DNA of 64,000 bases, from NCBI GenBank assembly GCA_001606155.1, contig LODT01000034.1, forward strand, positions 597,665-661,664, written 5' to 3'. The stretch is from Tieghemostelium lacteum. Its lineage: Eukaryota > Evosea > Eumycetozoa > Dictyosteliales > Raperosteliaceae. The position numbers and the translations under genes are program-made. The notes beneath the pieces are model-generated. The model saw nothing but the letters and a program-made list of their open reading frames with translations. It was not told where the DNA came from and searched no databases. Of the stretch, positions 38,777 to 47,257 are shown piece after piece (the stretch's first letter is position 1; the number at the start of each line of letters is the position of its first letter).

Positions 38777-40717
38777 TTATTTTAAATTAAATAAATAATT
38801 ATTGTTTAGTTTGGAGTCAAATGAGGAGAGTTTGGAACTTTTTACATAGGCATCTGGTATCAATTCATAGATTTGGTCAGAGAGAAATGTGAGGATTGAG
38901 GTATTGTTTTGAAGTGTTTTAGAGAGAATGTTAGCTTCCTCTGCTGTGAGTGTCATTGAAATTGGATTATCATTGAAATTTAAGTGTTGGATTGTTTGAT
39001 TCTTTTGAAGAACTTGTAGGATAAAGTCATAGTTCTCCATTACAGTGTCAGTTGGAAGAATAGATGCAATGTTTAGACCTGATAGACGGTTATTACTACA
39101 GATTGCATTGATAAGTCTCTCACTCGGATACATTTTATCTACAAGTAATTCCACTGAGAAATAGGTGATGACTGGATGATTAGATTCGATAAACTCTACA
39201 ACACATTCTGGAGGAATATCGAATTTATAGAGAGACAATGTTGTTAGATTTCTATTGTTTTTCACCAACTTGAAGAAATCAACCCAATCTTGAACACCTT
39301 GCTCAGTCTTGGTGTGTTTAATGTAGTATTCGTTGGATGCTAAATTGAGGGTTTTTAAAGAAGAGAATCTATCCGGCTGCACAAACGATGACATGAGATA
39401 ATGGAATGGTAGATCCTTGTTAAAGTATCGAATATTGGTGATTATAAGTGTCTCTAAACTCTGTGAATGAATCTCGCATACAGCTTTACTAATCATAGGA
39501 TTCATGTTAGTTATAGAAATCTCTTTTAGAGATGAAGGTGCAGTCCAGAATTGCAGAATATGGTTTTTAAGGAACAAATTACATCCTGTAATTCTTTTTA
39601 GTGTGGTGTTGGAAATTCTATATTTTTCAGTGTCACTTAAAATGGTGTGGTGTGATTTCAATTTGAATTCATTCATTAACACTGACGAATGAAATTCCTG
39701 TAGATTCTGATTGAGGTTTAGTAACTTGCAAACCCTGCTAATACTGACTTTACCAACACTTGTAATGACATAGGGATCAAAATAAAAGGTTTTCAACTGA
39801 GGTAGATAATTGGTTATACTTTTGAATAGTTGATCAAATTGTGTACATTCTTGTATTTGTGTAGGACCTAGTTGAAACTTTATATTCCTCAGTGACAGAT
39901 TTACAAGTGATGATTGAAATTGGCTGACCATTGTGAGAATAGTTGACATTTCTATAGTGAAATTTAAAATAGACAATGAAGTTATACTGGAAATTAGTGA
40001 TATTTCATCACATTGTACCAGTGCTCTTCCAATAGATGTATCTCGAATTGTTAATCTTCTGCATTTGGTTAACTTTATAAATGGTAAAAGTTTGGTAAAT
40101 GTGACATTTTCATATTTAAAAGACAGGTTCATTTCTTCCAGTGACCATTCCGCTAGAGGTTTGGAACCTGATCTACTAGATACAACATTTCCAAGTTGTT
40201 CAATAAAAAGATCGTATTTATCTTTAGTCTCCATCTGTAGGTCTATAATCTTAACATTGGTGCCTATATTCTGTCGATATTTTTCTGGAATGGGACCATA
40301 GTAGCATCCAAGTTGCGAACTGGCGAGAACTTGATAGAAAAGTCCACCGCCTTCTTCGTGACAATAGTATTTGGTAATGTAAGGTGATATATCATAGAAC
40401 TGTGGATGCATAAGTGTTGTACTGTTACTCATAAACAAGAGTCTTCTCGGTTTATACCCTCTTTTTATAGCTGCGCTGACTGTGGTGATATCATTTCCTG
40501 TACATATTAAAAAGTAAGGGTTTGCTAATCTAGGTAGAATATTTTCGTTCCACTGTTTAGAGACCATACTGATCAATCGAATATTTCTTTCAATCACTTT
40601 TACATTTCTTGAAACATATCCACTAATCTCTGTCAATGATAAATAGAAATTTAAAATTCTCTTTATCAAATAGTATGGTAAAGGTATTATAATCTTTTGA
40701 TTTTCTAATATTTGCAT
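38777..40717 (-). CDS. F-box-like / leucine-rich repeat protein
   Basis: Single exon, 646 residues. An F-box-like start (IIPLPYYLIKRILNFYLSLTEIS..ISMVSKQWNENILPRLA, about 8-62) precedes scattered leucine-rich repeat units, such as CRRLTIRDTS, LTTLSLYKFDIP and IQHLNFNDNPI, that fill the rest. Related to the second half of the gene at 16219 and to the gene at 60496. Such proteins may select substrates for SCF ubiquitin ligases, but the F-box is divergent and binding to SKP1 cannot be confirmed from sequence. Large dictyostelid families of this kind are common. Confidence 0.65.
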   Translation of the reverse strand: MQILENQKIIIPLPYYLIKRILNFYLSLTEISGYVSRNVKVIERNIRLISMVSKQWNENILPRLANPYFLICTGNDITTVSAAIKRGYKPRRLLFMSNSTTLMHPQFYDISPYITKYYCHEEGGGLFYQVLASSQLGCYYGPIPEKYRQNIGTNVKIIDLQMETKDKYDLFIEQLGNVVSSRSGSKPLAEWSLEEMNLSFKYENVTFTKLLPFIKLTKCRRLTIRDTSIGRALVQCDEISLISSITSLSILNFTIEMSTILTMVSQFQSSLVNLSLRNIKFQLGPTQIQECTQFDQLFKSITNYLPQLKTFYFDPYVITSVGKVSISRVCKLLNLNQNLQEFHSSVLMNEFKLKSHHTILSDTEKYRISNTTLKRITGCNLFLKNHILQFWTAPSSLKEISITNMNPMISKAVCEIHSQSLETLIITNIRYFNKDLPFHYLMSSFVQPDRFSSLKTLNLASNEYYIKHTKTEQGVQDWVDFFKLVKNNRNLTTLSLYKFDIPPECVVEFIESNHPVITYFSVELLVDKMYPSERLINAICSNNRLSGLNIASILPTDTVMENYDFILQVLQKNQTIQHLNFNDNPISMTLTAEEANILSKTLQNNTSILTFLSDQIYELIPDAYVKSSKLSSFDSKLNNNYLFNLK

Positions 40718-40926
40718 ATCTGAGATATGGATAAAAAGTAATTTTCAAATAAATAAATCCTTCTTTTTTTTTTTAAATTTACAAATCAACACAAAAATAA
40801 GTAGGATTTTCATTCAATGAATCTTTCAATTTATATTTTTAAAACCCCCTAGATTTTTTTTTTTTTATTATTATTTTTTCTATTTTCTTAATTGTAATTA
40901 ATTATTATTATTATTTTTAATATCTT

Positions 40927-42222
40927 ATGGGTAACCAAACTTTAACTGACCAAGAAAAAGGTCAAGTAGCATTTGTACATGGTTCTTCCTGTACTGTGCT
41001 AAGTACTACTGTAGCTAGACTTTATGATGGTAAATCAGGTAGATGGGAATTTACTGGTGCAATTGGAGCTGTTTCAATTATTACTGACCGTGTTGGTAAA
41101 GTTAACCACATTAAAATTGTTGACTTAAAAGTATGTTTAACTATTATCTTGATATTGTTATTTTCGCAATAAGCACTAATATTCATGATTTTTACAATAT
41201 TGCAGTCAACTAGATGTATTTTTGAACAAGAACTCTATGATGGATTTGATTATCAAAAACCAAGAGACTTCTTCCACACTTTTGAAGGTGATTCACAAGT
41301 TTTTGGTTTATCTTTTGCTGATGTTGCAGAAGCTGCAGAATTTTATGCACATGTATTAAACTGCAAGAGCGGTAACAAATCCAATGCTGTTAACCCAAAT
41401 ACCAGTAGTGGAAAGGTAACCAATGGTTCTTCTTTGAATCTCAAAAAAGAAGAAAAGAAAAAGAAGAGTGGTGGTTTCATGAGCAAACTCTTTGGTGGTA
41501 ATGAAACTCAAGAGTTGGAAATCTCTGCTCCTTCATCTTTCCAACACAAATCTCATATTGGTTGGGATCCTGAAAAAGGTTTTGATATCAGAGATATTCC
41601 AGCTGATTGGAGAAAACTCTTCCAAAGTGCTGGTATTAAGAAATCTGAAATCAAAGATCTTGAAACTGCCAAATTCCTTGTTAACGTTGTTTCTGAACAA
41701 TTGGCTACTCAAGGAGGACAACCTCCCACCTCTGGTGCTGTTCAACAGCCTTCAAGACCTGGTCCACCACCACCTCCACCAACTCAACGTTCTAACCCAC
41801 CACCACCTCCAACCAAAAGCAATAACCCACCACCTCCTCCACCTGTAACTAGAGGAAATGCCCCGCCACCCCCACCACCAACAGGGGGAGGTCCACCTCC
41901 TCCACCACCTCCTCCACCCTCTGGAGGTCCACCCCCACCACCACCTCCCTCATTTGGAGCCACTGCCACCTCAGGTGGAGGCGGAGGCGGAGGCGGAGGA
42001 GGTCGAACTGATCTATTGGCCTCTATCAGAGAAGGTAAATCCCTCAAAGCAGTTGACAAAACTGCTCCACCACCAAGTAGTTTGCCTGATATTTCTGGTG
42101 ATGTTGGAAATAGAACTTTAATTTCAACTCTTCAATCTGCTATGGCAAACAGAAGACAAAATATGGGTGAAGATGAAGACCAAGAAGAAGATGATGATGA
42201 TGATGACTGGAGTGACTATTAA
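40927..42222 (+). CDS. wasA: WASP (Wiskott-Aldrich syndrome protein)
   Basis: Two exons (40927..41130 and 41206..42222; intron 41131..41205), 406 residues, like D. discoideum WASP (about 400). The order is: WH1 domain (about 8-115; YDGKSGRWEFTGAIGAVSII), basic stretch (KKEEKKKKS), CRIB/GBD (ISAPSSFQHKSHIGWDPEKG near 174), a proline-rich stretch (about 250-320), a WH2 motif (RTDLLASIREGKSLKAV near 333), a central helix (RTLISTLQSAMANRR near 369) and an acidic tail ending DDDDDDWSDY with the conserved tryptophan. It binds Rac/Cdc42-type GTPases, then the Arp2/3 complex. Only one clear WH2 is seen. The nearby formin (49022..53057) is also an actin nucleator, but I see no sign of co-regulation. 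Confidence 0.95.
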
Positions 42223-42733
42223 ACTGATTATCACAATCACATTACTCTCTATCAAGTCTCCCTACCACAAAATTAATAATAAACTAAAAAATTTTGTCGC
42301 AATTATTTAAAGGTTTAATTCTTTTTATAAAAAGCATTTCTATTACTCTCTCTTTCATGAGTTAACTTATTTAGTCAATGTTTAGCAGATTCACTAAAAA
42401 CAACCTAAAAATACCATAACTCTATTTTAAATACTAATTCTTAGTTGAGCTTTTACCCAATAAATATAATTAACAAAAAAAACACCATTAATTAATCTTC
42501 CAAATGGACATACAATACTACACCAAGGTCCTAAACACCATAATATGAAAAATTCTGATAAATTAGTAACATATTCAAGAAATTGGGTACCATTTTAAAG
42601 AATTCTGATGAAGGTGTTCTAAAACAGGTTTATGTAGTCAATTGTAAACCAAAATCCAAAGATATGTACCACATAACCCATTTTGATTTAATTTTTTTTT
42701 TCATTTGAGCAACAATCTATAACCACAGAGGAA
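42223..42733. other. Intergenic region, nothing seen
   Basis: 511 bp between wasA and the nucleoside hydrolase fusion gene, both plus strand. Moderately AT-rich with poly-A and poly-T tracts. I found no ORF, RNA gene or clear repeat. Confidence 0.4.
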
Positions 42734-44500
42734 ATGCAAAATATTTATAACCAAGAATTAAGATATATATGGTTGGATTGTGATCCAGGACATGATGATG
42801 CATTTATGATAATGTTGGCAACACACACACCTGGATTTAAGGTTTTGGGTATTTCGACAGTTGCAGGCAACCAGACTGTGGATAAGACTACTGATAATGC
42901 ATTGAGAGTATTAGAGAGTATAGGATTGGGTGGGAAGATTGATGTAGTGAAAGGAGCTGCAGTTCCATTGGTTAGAGCATCTATGATATGTCCAGAGATT
43001 CATGGTGAATCTGGATTAGATTGTATCACACCTCTACCCCATAGCAAACATTCAGCAATAACTGATAAACCTGCTGTACAGGTAATGTACGAGAGAATTA
43101 AATCATGTTATCATGAACAGACCAAACAACAAAAAGTAACTATAGTCGCAACTGGGTGTCTTACAAATATTGCTTTACTGTTTTCAGTGTATCCTCAAGT
43201 TAAATCTATGGTTGATATATCCATTCTAGGAGGGGCTATTAATATGGGAAATATGACTCCAGCTGCAGAGTTTAATATTCTCATTGACCCTGAAGCTGCA
43301 CATATTGTCTTTGAAAGTGGGGTACAGTTGACTATGGTACCTTTAGATGTTAGTCATAAGGCACTGGTTACAGACCAGGTTGTTGAACAGATTAGATATA
43401 TTGATAAAGAGTCTCGGTTTATTGAAACTTGTGTGAATTTACTGCAGTTCTTTAAGAGTACTTATAGAGATTTATTTAATATGCCTGATGCACCATTACA
43501 TGATCCTTTGGCAATGGCATACCTTATCAATCCAAATATATTCACAGTACAACAAATGAGAGTGGACATTGAAACTCAAGGACATTGTGTTGGTAGAACT
43601 GTTTGTGATGTTTATAATTTTGAAAAGAAAAAACCAAAGAACATTCATGTAGCAACTGATGTATTTGTTCCAGCATTTTGGAATCTTCTAGTAAGTGCTT
43701 TAACTAGATGTAATAAATCTAGTTGTTTCAATCCATCATCATCATCATCATCATCAGTAGGTGATATCCAAACACCACCAACCAATTCACCTATAAATAG
43801 CAGTAGTAATGGCACCAACACTCAACGAGATGTTGTATTGGAACCAGTTGTATTGGAACCTGAATTAACAAGTCAAGAAATACAAGAGTTAAAGACAAAA
43901 ATAATTAGAACCTCATTAATTATAGGTGAGAGATGGTGTCCTGTCAATGCTATTTGGTATTATAAGTGGGCACAGACTTACTACACTCGTGACGACTTGG
44001 GTCCCATTGACAATAGCATGCTATTGCAAGCAGATGGTGAAACAATGAAAGCAGATCTCATGAGTTCCAAACACTATATATTAGTTCCAGAGATTATCTA
44101 CAAGAAACTAAAAGCTGTTTATGGCGGTGGTCCTGATATCTACAGAAAGGTCATCAAGGGTAGATTTGAATCAAATTTTGTTGATTTGAAAATCCCTTTC
44201 CCATTGCAATTTGTAAGATCAACAGATCTCACCAAAGTCATTGACGGTTACGCTTTGTCATCCGAGACTATTGCCTCTCTAAAGGACAGATACTGTAATG
44301 TCTTTGGATTGGTACCATCCGAAGTCAAGATTTGGGACTTTTACAAAAACAACAAATATCATGAACTCAAACCACTTGAATACGTAGGCAACTCAAATCT
44401 TCTCGATAACCAATTGATCTTACTCGAGGAAAAGAATGCAGATGGAACCTGGCCTGTTATACAAAGACAAAACTATGCAACAAGCTCCAAGCTCAAATAA
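42734..44500 (+). CDS. Nucleoside hydrolase fused to a DUSP-UBL module
   Basis: Single uninterrupted exon, 588 residues. Residues 1 to about 325 are a complete inosine/uridine-preferring nucleoside hydrolase: WLDCDPGHDDAFMIML near the start binds Ca2+ and ribose, and GGAINMGNMTPAAEFNILIDPEAA is the second signature. A Ser/Pro/Asn linker (about 326-375) leads to a DUSP domain (ERWCPVNAIWYYKW near 400) and GPIDNSMLL near 423. A ubiquitin-like part follows and ends KNADGTWPVIQR, the block that in USP4/11/15 precedes the peptidase. No C19 catalytic domain follows. The first half hydrolyses nucleosides to base and ribose; why it carries a deubiquitinase recruitment module is unknown. The fusion has no internal intron or break. 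Confidence 0.85.
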   Translation: MQNIYNQELRYIWLDCDPGHDDAFMIMLATHTPGFKVLGISTVAGNQTVDKTTDNALRVLESIGLGGKIDVVKGAAVPLVRASMICPEIHGESGLDCITPLPHSKHSAITDKPAVQVMYERIKSCYHEQTKQQKVTIVATGCLTNIALLFSVYPQVKSMVDISILGGAINMGNMTPAAEFNILIDPEAAHIVFESGVQLTMVPLDVSHKALVTDQVVEQIRYIDKESRFIETCVNLLQFFKSTYRDLFNMPDAPLHDPLAMAYLINPNIFTVQQMRVDIETQGHCVGRTVCDVYNFEKKKPKNIHVATDVFVPAFWNLLVSALTRCNKSSCFNPSSSSSSSVGDIQTPPTNSPINSSSNGTNTQRDVVLEPVVLEPELTSQEIQELKTKIIRTSLIIGERWCPVNAIWYYKWAQTYYTRDDLGPIDNSMLLQADGETMKADLMSSKHYILVPEIIYKKLKAVYGGGPDIYRKVIKGRFESNFVDLKIPFPLQFVRSTDLTKVIDGYALSSETIASLKDRYCNVFGLVPSEVKIWDFYKNNKYHELKPLEYVGNSNLLDNQLILLEEKNADGTWPVIQRQNYATSSKLK

Positions 44501-44691
44501 TTTCCGGTTTAGATAGGATTTGTTAAAGAGTTTATTGAAACCAACTAACCCAAAATATTTAATAACTAATATTAATAATATTTTCTAACAATATTAACCC
44601 TCTAACTAAACAACAATAAATTTTTGATGTATTGATTTGATTTCACTGAAATATTACAAAAAATTTTTTTTTTATTTTAATTTACCTTGAA

Positions 44692-45358
44692 ATGAGTGGA
44701 AACAATAGTAACGATTACAACAGTGCATCTTTAACTGCAACTGAAAGCAAACCAGCTACAGGTCACGAATTGAATAAATACATTGACGAAATTATGTCAA
44801 AAATGCCAAAGGTATTTGATAATGATGACACAAAGAATTTATACGAAAGAGAAGATGAAACTATTTGGACACCATTAGCTAGAAGATTAATTTCATTTAA
44901 AAACCACTCTACTGAAATTGCACCAGTATGTATTTCATTACTTCCAACACTTATAGATAACTTCAAGAATTATCATTGACATTAAATGATATTTGATGAC
45001 ATATGTATCATTACAGAAAGTATGTGAAAATGTTGATAAATCATTTACAACAGTTTCAAAATCATTAGTTGAGGCAGTTGATGTTGTAGAACTCCGTGAA
45101 AATTATAGAAAAGGTAAAGAAATGGTTAAAAAGACACCACCAGCAGCAATTGTAGCAACAGCAACTATTCTTCCCATTTTATTTTTATTCAAAACTCCAA
45201 CAACACTCTCTAAACTCAAATACCCAATTTTAGCAACTATTGGTTTTGGTGTATCTTCACACTATTATTACCCAGAACTAATGTCAGAGGTCAGTAAAAA
45301 AACTATTGATTTATATAAAAAATATGCATCTCCTTCCTCATCCAACACATCACAGTAA
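44692..45358 (+). CDS. Probable mitochondrial membrane protein, MIC26/27-like
   Basis: Two exons (44692..44925 and 45017..45358; intron 44926..45016), 191 residues. The N-terminal half is polar and acidic. The second half has LVEAVDVVELRENYRKGKEMVKKTPPAAIV, two hydrophobic stretches (AAIVATATILPILFLF and YPILATIGFGVSSHYYY) and a final amphipathic YPELMSEVSKKTIDLYKKY. That order resembles the apolipoprotein-O-like MICOS subunits MIC26/MIC27, which shape cristae, but no targeting peptide is clear and the match is weak. Small size and a two-TM layout could equally fit another organelle membrane protein. Confidence 0.4.
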
Positions 45359-45466
45359 AATGAGGTATAGAGAATGTACAAACGAGATAATTACAATATA
45401 AACAATATAGTATATAGCAATAGTTATAATAATGGATAGATTTATTAGTATATACACATTTTTGTT

Positions 45467-46474
45467 TTAAAAATTAAAACTCTTTATAACCACTTTTCCT
45501 TTGTTGGCATTGGATTCTAGGTATTTGTGAGCTTCTTGAATCTCAGTATAATCAAATACCTTATCAATAATTGGTTTTAATTGACCAGATTGGAAAAGCT
45601 CTAGACATTTGGATTCAAATTGTTTAATGAGACCAGTTTTGTATTCATTAGTACGATTTCTCAGTGTGGAACCTTTGATTGTCAGACGTTTGGACAAGAT
45701 ACTTCCTATATCAGCTCCATGTTCATCTTTTACAGAGGCACCTGATAGGAGACCTTGAATGACCATAGTTCCATCCATTTCCAGTGATTTCATATTCTGA
45801 TTCCAATATTTTGAACCTACATAATCAAAGATTACAGAGACACCTTTTTTATCAGTGATATCACTGACTACAGGTACAAATGATTCTGTTGTTTTATAAT
45901 TAATAGTATGTGTGCATCCTAGTGATTTAATAAAGTCTTCTTTTTCTTTACTTCCACAGGTACCTATAATCTTTGTGGATTCAGATACTTTGGCTAATTG
46001 AATGAGTGCTGTACCTACACCGCTGGCAGCTGCATGTATCATTATAGAGTGGTGAGGTTGAACTTGTGCCAACAGATGAAATGCTTGAAATGCTGTTAAC
46101 CAAGCTTCTGGAATTGCAGCACCTTGCTCAAATGTCATATGAGAAGGTAGGGGCATTAAATGCTGTTGTTGAATAATACAATATTCACCATAGGCTCCAC
46201 CACCTACTAATCCAAAAACTCTATCACCTTTTTTAAATAGGTCATTGTTATGACATTCTTCTACTATACCTGACATTTCTAAACCTAGAATATCAGAGTC
46301 ACCTGGTGGTGGAGGGTATCTACCAAGTCTCTGTAAGATATCAGCTCTGTTTAATGCAAAGCTTTTTACTTTTACCAATACCTCATTGGCTTTAGGTACA
46401 GGTTTTGGACAAGTTCCAATAAATAAATTTTCAACACCTCCAAAGGATTTTAATAGAATTGATTTCATTGACAT
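45467..46474 (-). CDS. NADPH:quinone oxidoreductase, PIG3-like
   Basis: Single exon, 335 residues, a zinc-free medium-chain reductase. The PIG3/TP53I3 signature LNRADILQRLGRYPPPPG..SDILGLEMSG lies at about 43-70. AASGVGTALIQLAK near 150-163 is the NADPH-binding glycine-rich turn, and GKVVIKS closes the domain. PIG3-type enzymes reduce quinones by one electron using NADPH. Cytosolic or mitochondrial location is not evident; no presequence is seen. Complete with no broken motif. Confidence 0.93.
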   Translation of the reverse strand: MSMKSILLKSFGGVENLFIGTCPKPVPKANEVLVKVKSFALNRADILQRLGRYPPPPGDSDILGLEMSGIVEECHNNDLFKKGDRVFGLVGGGAYGEYCIIQQQHLMPLPSHMTFEQGAAIPEAWLTAFQAFHLLAQVQPHHSIMIHAAASGVGTALIQLAKVSESTKIIGTCGSKEKEDFIKSLGCTHTINYKTTESFVPVVSDITDKKGVSVIFDYVGSKYWNQNMKSLEMDGTMVIQGLLSGASVKDEHGADIGSILSKRLTIKGSTLRNRTNEYKTGLIKQFESKCLELFQSGQLKPIIDKVFDYTEIQEAHKYLESNANKGKVVIKSFNF

Positions 46475-46771
46475 TTTCTAAATGTAATAAAAATTAAAAA
46501 AAAATAATGTAAAGGGTGAACTTGTAAAATGAAAGTCACAAAAATTTAAAAAATAATTATTATTCTAGAATATCGCTTCAGTTTATGATGCTATTACTTA
46601 AAAACTATTACGTATTTTCGATACTATTTATATAATTGCCGACTTTTCCGGTCCATTCTTTGTATTAAAAAAAAATATAATTACTATTGCTATTTGTTAT
46701 GAGTTTGGGGTTATTGGTATTGTTGTTGTTGTTTAGTTTTAAAACCTAAAGTTTGTTATGTGATTATTATA

Positions 46772-47257
46772 TTATTTTAGAGCAGGGAGGCCCTGCATTC
46801 GATCATCATCATCTTCATTTTCTGTATATATTATCAATATTAGTATAGTTGTAATATCCCTGGTTAAGATTTGACATATATCATAATTTCATACCCTCTG
46901 TCATTTTAATTAATTCAAATAATGAACCTCCGTTCATTATATTACCTGTAGTATTATTTCCTGCTGGTTTTTGAGCTGATAACCTAAGGTTATTTTACAA
47001 TTAATATTCTGTATTCCTATTAATTCCAACAATACATTGAACCTTATTCCAATATAAACCTACATATTATTCATTTTATTATTAAAATTTGATAATGGGG
47101 TAGTTGTTGATTGTTCACCAACTTTCAAAAAAGTGTTTGAAGCAACAACCAATTGGTTTGATTTTAGTGATGAAAAGTTTGATGTTTTACTGAATACATT
47201 TGAGGTTTTATTGGTTAATTTAAGACCTCTTTGAATAACTCGACAAGTTTGGTTCAT
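46772..47257 (-). CDS. Small three-exon gene, probable mitochondrial protein of unknown function
   Basis: Exons 47257..47064, 46983..46895 and 46821..46772 (introns 46984..47063, 46822..46894) give 110 residues. The N-terminus is basic and Ser/Thr/Asn-rich (VIQRGLKLTNKTSNVFSKTS), like a mitochondrial presequence. The middle has GSLFELIKMTE and the acidic C-terminus reads ENEDDDDRMQGLPALK. Both splice junctions keep frame and use consensus sites, which supports a real gene despite the short length. I do not recognise the family. It lies between two unrelated genes and shares no motif with them. Confidence 0.55.

Follow-up and report, generated by a model that had tools for sequence, protein, structure and literature searches.

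The described proteins closest to the gene reported here are the IU-type nucleoside hydrolases (PF01156), such as RihA/RihC, URH1 and IUnH, and the deubiquitinases USP4, USP11 and USP15. With the hydrolases it has in common the complete domain, its motifs and the predicted fold, but it carries about 258 extra C-terminal residues that hold a DUSP domain followed by a ubiquitin-like (UBL) domain. Because it falls below the equivalog cut-offs of all four NCBIfam hydrolase models listed, no substrate was assigned. The DUSP-UBL double domain is common to USP4, USP11 and USP15, and the DNA of linker, DUSP and UBL is 90-92% identical to that of the member of this group found in the same genome, but the UCH peptidase of these enzymes is absent. 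Young chimeric genes that arose by partial duplication are reported to occur in Drosophila (PMC5460883) and Oryza (PMC9199173), and there, too, part of one gene was joined to another; in the present case, however, the recipient keeps its whole domain, no unfused copy was found in a six-frame search of the genome, and the fusion itself has been duplicated. The mode of origin is ordinary and the pair of domains is unusual, and we consider the fusion to be real, recent and well traced.

The gene lies in a stretch of 64,000 nucleotides (hereafter the window) from contig LODT01000034.1 (C29) of Tieghemostelium lacteum, a social amoeba formerly named Dictyostelium lacteum. A first-pass annotation, made from the letters alone, had described one unbroken frame of 588 residues in which a complete nucleoside hydrolase with the motif DCDPGHDDA is joined to a DUSP domain and a ubiquitin-like part of the USP4/11/15 type, with GPIDNS and NADGTWP as hallmarks and no peptidase after them. 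This description held in every part. The single open frame needs no intron, and the domain searches that had been named as a check matched nucleoside hydrolase, DUSP and ubiquitin-like domains above their curated cut-offs, the hydrolase profile over its full length (Table 1); DUSP followed by Ubiquitin_3 is the double domain of the USP4/11/15 type. Both GPIDNS and NADGTWP occur and align with 5ctr_C, a DUSP-UBL chain of USP4 (E 7e-18), and a sequence search of the PDB assigned residues 12-325 to RihA (4wr2, E 1.3e-64) and residues 389-574 to the USP4 DUSP-UBL (5ctr, E 1.1e-17). In an alignment of 37 rows, 3 of them deubiquitinases and 5 covering the module, the columns of the catalytic motifs (D17, D22, N181, H256 and D257) are nearly invariant (at least 90%), and we take DxDPGxDD, EFN and HDP to have the residue roles that they have as IU-type nucleoside hydrolase motifs. 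No UCH peptidase (PF00443) was found by Pfam in the window protein (5 families at E up to 1) or in the second copy described below, and the window protein is therefore not a deubiquitinase.

Table 1. Features of the fusion gene and its flanks, in window coordinates.
Feature	Position	Strand	Evidence
Fragment (relic of a duplicated segment) of the upstream neighbour of the C9 copy, a THUMP/UPF0020 methyltransferase-like gene	42488..42662	+	152/176 identical, 1 gap; Pfam of the neighbour
Whole fusion ORF, 588 aa	42734..44500	+	open frame
IU-type nucleoside hydrolase (NH) domain, residues 12-317	42767..43684	+	Pfam PF01156 IU_nuc_hydro, profile 1-297/297, 314.6 bits (cut-off 34.2); DCDPGHDDA, TN, EFN and HDP motifs; model pLDDT mostly >90
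NH C-terminal helix, residues 312-329, just before the end point of unfused relatives	43667..43720	+	model and alignment
Candidate intron of 67 nt, from GTAAGT to the CAG acceptor inherited with the donor segment	43691..43757	+	sequence
Part derived from the deubiquitinase gene on C23 (L017:1920-2872)	43731..44476	+	blastn 89.5% (105 columns), 92.2% (654 columns)
Tail of donor intron 1 (TCA repeat and CAG), read as serines in the fusion	43731..43757	+	DNA match, protein comparison
DUSP domain, residues 398-474	43925..44155	+	Pfam 53.6 bits (cut-off 29.3); module model pLDDT 89.9; first PDB match USP4 3jyu
Ubiquitin-like (UBL) domain, residues 497-574	44222..44455	+	Pfam Ubiquitin_3 31.1 bits (cut-off 24); structure model
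Fragment of about 30 bases of the DNA-alkylation-repair gene that lies downstream of the C9 copy	44511..44540	+	29/31 identical, E 4e-7

Structure models agreed with these assignments. The hydrolase half of the full-length model is confident, and its TM to target against solved hydrolases is 0.82-0.94 among the best 50 matches. The module had low confidence in that model, probably because only 5 of the 37 alignment rows cover it; modelled alone, from 8 sequences, it reached a mean pLDDT of 89.9. Ranks 1-19 of its PDB matches are all USP4, USP15 or USP11 chains (TM to query 0.40-0.76; best match USP4 3jyu, E 5.5e-17), and besides these chains the list turns to ubiquitin-like proteins.

The donor of the module was identified as a deubiquitinase gene of the USP4/15 type on contig C23 of T. 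lacteum, which carries DUSP, UBL and UCH (UCH 251.3 bits). Its product has 1081 aa if the first ATG in the long frame is taken as the start, and 1101 aa in the public protein P0121, which is annotated as a peptidase C19 family protein and is 100% identical to the donor gene product. In the donor, 194 nt separate the two matched pieces, and in the window these pieces share 10 nt; about 204 nt of linker are therefore missing from the fusion or were gained by the donor. P0121 opens with MTESPG...EIGSFS and continues with VGDIQ, and its beginning is common to the P. violaceum orthologue P0122. Because this extra start maps upstream of the long frame of the donor, the TCA tract before VGDIQ is intron by our comparison; in our reading donor intron 1 covers L017 1643-1946 and ends with a TCA repeat and CAG.

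It is this intron that places the event at the level of DNA. The copy begins inside donor intron 1, and the serine run of the fusion protein is therefore an intron tail that is now part of the open frame; the C9 copy retains TCAACAG letter for letter at the same place. The DNA match shows that the copied piece starts in the tail of intron 1, takes in the DUSP and UBL codons and stops before the peptidase; it was attached in frame at the 3' end of the hydrolase gene. The join follows the hydrolase's own end, which reads ...CNKSSCFN in the window and CNKSSCLNK in the C9 copy, where the 328-residue Heterostelium protein ends with SNKQSCLNKK. A DNA-level copy that landed at the hydrolase stop codon would explain this junction. 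With the donor identified and non-coding donor sequence present at the join, the gene is a chimera made by partial duplication. Retroposition of the donor mRNA was ruled out, since the copied piece includes the intron tail.

A second full fusion was found on contig C9. It has an open frame of 585 codons and the same junction. Its protein shares 88% identity with that of the window copy, and the two already differ at their C-terminal ends. The C9 copy lies between a THUMP/UPF0020 methyltransferase-like gene upstream and a DNA-alkylation-repair gene downstream, and because fragments of both neighbours flank the window copy (Table 1), C9 is the source and C29 the daughter. The spacer between the methyltransferase-like gene and the fusion is about 1.1 kb longer in C9 than in the window copy. 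The genome gave 2 IU_nuc_hydro matches, both in the fused genes, in the six-frame search mentioned above, which could miss a hydrolase gene cut up by introns. The first-pass reading was sound as to the architecture, the USP4/11/15 origin of the module and the missing peptidase; it could not see that part of a gene had been duplicated recently and that the genome has the resulting fusion in two places.

We asked how far the architecture extends beyond T. lacteum. The first-pass annotation had proposed looking for the same domain order in other dictyostelids, and this order was not found in the four named relatives: a whole-protein search (120 of 1330 matches listed) gave for P. violaceum (353 aa), Heterostelium album (328), D. 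purpureum (338) and D. discoideum (341) nucleoside hydrolases with PF01156 only and no module, 55-58% identical to the window protein. Among the best 120 of the 1330 matches, the protein of the window is the only one that bears a DUSP. A query with residues 335-588, against proteins with lengths of about 323-1029 residues, returned nothing but the protein of the window itself; because P. violaceum P0122, which has a fitting length, was missed as well, this search overlooks diverged relatives. The C9 protein, which may have another gene model in the public set, is likewise absent from the matches of both searches. The fusion appears to be confined to T. lacteum or its kin. The architecture had been called new, and neither the 120 matches listed nor the module search held another protein with a nucleoside hydrolase and a DUSP-UBL; in the open-licence PMC literature we found no description of this architecture and none of a gene fusion in T. 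lacteum.

Both partners also occur in other combinations. Four of the matches listed (P0050, P0055, P0077 and P0099) are nucleoside hydrolases joined to PF13673 or PF16804, which makes the hydrolase a repeated fusion partner. In the T. lacteum genome all 4 of the DUSP ORFs scanned (L020 on C13, L024 at C23:190000-196000, L019 on C2 and L021 on C19) have a DUSP above cut-off and no UCH within the ORF, where a peptidase beyond an intron is possible; like the fusion they have a DUSP without UCH, but they have no hydrolase. One of the four carries a BTB_2 (54.0 bits) and another a B-box just under cut-off (24.0 vs 24.1), and a second DUSP ORF adjoins the latter. Sequence identity to the window protein is 33-41% for the ORFs on C2, C13 and C19. 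Repeated shuffling of the module within this genome is possible. A plasmid search gave no match, nor did Rfam over window positions 40000-47000.

We believe that the most probable account of the locus, and one in which we have fairly good confidence, is a young chimeric gene whose working nucleoside hydrolase is tethered to a DUSP-UBL module that serves as a docking tag, if as anything. Its main rival holds that selection keeps the hydrolase only, and that the DUSP-UBL tail is a recent, nearly neutral passenger, folded because it is young and bound to decay. The two share an origin, and the odds that we give them overlap; we regard the passenger as possible but short of probable. The comparison of the two halves bears directly on this question. 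The hydrolase half is strongly constrained, with a dS of 0.10, a dN of 0.018 and a ratio of 0.18 between C29 and C9. For the module (191 codons) the ratio is 0.68 between the two copies, and the values of 0.63 (C29) and 0.98 (C9) against the donor are what a passenger would give. Counted by branch over 205 codons, with 6 three-state sites dropped, synonymous and nonsynonymous changes stand at 10:22 (C29), 9:27 (C9) and 1:6 (donor). The fused branches pooled therefore have 49 nonsynonymous to 19 synonymous changes in the module, as against 14:20 in the hydrolase pair (Fisher p 0.0045), and neither of their ratios, 0.58 and 0.79, departs from 1 (site-only binomial p 0.19 for C29 and 0.54 for C9). 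A passenger would likewise account for the amino-acid changes of the C9 module, which number 29 against 29.8 in a neutral simulation (p 0.44), and for the C-terminal ends that have already diverged.

Against a pure passenger stands the state of the reading frame and of the fold. Neither copy has a stop, or an indel relative to the donor, over 196 codons (588 nt); the neutral chance of no stop is 0.116 for C29 and 0.085 for C9 under the observed spectrum (3000 runs), and 0.168 and 0.124 under a flat one. In the stop-free runs the observed similarity to P. violaceum was reached in 0.9% of about 348 (C29) and 0% of about 254 (C9), and that to fish USP4 in 0.3% and 3.9%. The Pfam scores are not below those of the donor (C29, C9 and donor: DUSP 53.6, 54.4 and 53.3 bits; UBL 31.1, 31.7 and 27.3 bits). 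The C29 module has 19 amino-acid changes, fewer than the 25.3 of the neutral simulation (p 0.009). Of the 91 positions common to donor and P. violaceum, 8 have changed in each copy, compared with 16 of the 99 other positions in C29 (p 0.19, not significant) and 26 of 99 in C9 (p 0.002); for positions common also to fish the sparing has a p of 0.03 (C29) and 0.018 (C9). Similarity of the module to P. violaceum has nonetheless been lost: the donor scores 479, the fused copies 448 and 450. Taking these codon comparisons together, we read the constraint on the module as relaxed but not absent, weaker than that on the hydrolase half and probably weak at best.

We note that the donor DUSP-UBL (L017:2255-2842) has changed far less than the fused copies, synonymous sites included (1 change vs 10 and 9). 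A single fusion followed by clock-like divergence is a poor fit to these counts. The changes unique to either copy (65 in all) are clustered, in 24 runs against a shuffled mean of 33.2 (p 0.014). This suggests patchy gene conversion, but neighbouring changes that arise in clusters would leave the same sign.

A less favoured account separates the two halves by splicing. If the GTAAGT at 43691 were used with the acceptor kept at 43757, much of the mRNA would encode a hydrolase of 319 residues that ends with WNLL and a stop, and the DUSP-UBL would go mostly untranslated. The site lies 67 nt before the donor-derived acceptor in both copies. GTAAGT has a density of 0.117 per strand-kb across the window, which makes its occurrence within 100 nt an event of about 1%; the RNA-seq annotation of D. 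lacteum reported 1,088 new alternative splice isoforms (PMC5282741). Yet the shortened hydrolase would have only half of its C-terminal helix (312-329), the frame is still open in both copies, and the site was sought after the sequence had been seen, where 6 other donor-like sites are present in C29 and 7 in C9, some of which would give shorter fused products. We consider this account improbable. Finally, an artefact, in which an assembly error or a missed stop makes two separate genes look fused, is scarcely credible even though the evidence is genomic sequence only, because the identical join is found on two contigs, 884 and 701 kb long, among different neighbours, in copies that differ in frame, which rules out misassembly and shows that the fusion is not a one-off assembly error.

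Under the preferred reading of a tethered enzyme, the protein would act as an ordinary nucleoside hydrolase, cleaving ribonucleosides for base salvage, with a folded DUSP-UBL attached. This tail, if active at all, would most likely serve as a docking tag for proteins bound by the parent deubiquitinase, or else associate in trans with the catalytic part of the parent itself, which is what isolated USP4 DUSP-Ubl does in vitro. According to PMC4243247, the USP4 catalytic domain can be activated when DUSP-Ubl is supplied in trans (at up to 150 uM in the tests), and DUSP-Ubl interacts with the insert; the titles of PDB 5ctr and 5jjw state that the DUSP-UBL of USP4 and USP15 bind SART3. Given this trans-activation and SART3 binding, docking to the parent's partners would be the simplest function. 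The same paper describes mutations of USP4 R40, E134 and Y136 that lower activity, and a Y136A piece that still bound USP4. In an alignment whose chain offset of 3 fits M24, R40, E134 and Y136, the window protein has I, L and I as counterparts of the latter three, with M instead of L in donor and C9. The mammalian mechanism of activation cannot be assumed, since these residues are kept in neither the fusion nor the parent; binding to a USP4-type partner could still occur, since the Y136A piece still bound USP4.

The first-pass annotation had suggested that the fusion would tie nucleoside salvage to a partner in the ubiquitin pathway, and we regard this tie as a testable guess. A bolder form of it, which we think very unlikely, has the fusion act as a trans partner of the parent deubiquitinase or of its substrates, so that nucleoside breakdown, as in starvation, which triggers aggregation, would be linked to deubiquitination, with the kept acceptor as a switch between fused and enzyme-only forms.

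The locus has caught a fusion soon after its birth, when donor, recipient, junction, and source and daughter loci can still be read, and at its junction intron sequence has been turned into coding sequence. RNA-seq of T. lacteum exists (PMC5282741), and CRISPR knock-in works in this species (PMC13046832). Whether a new domain is of use as soon as it is acquired, or begins as a passenger, can be tested directly on this fusion.
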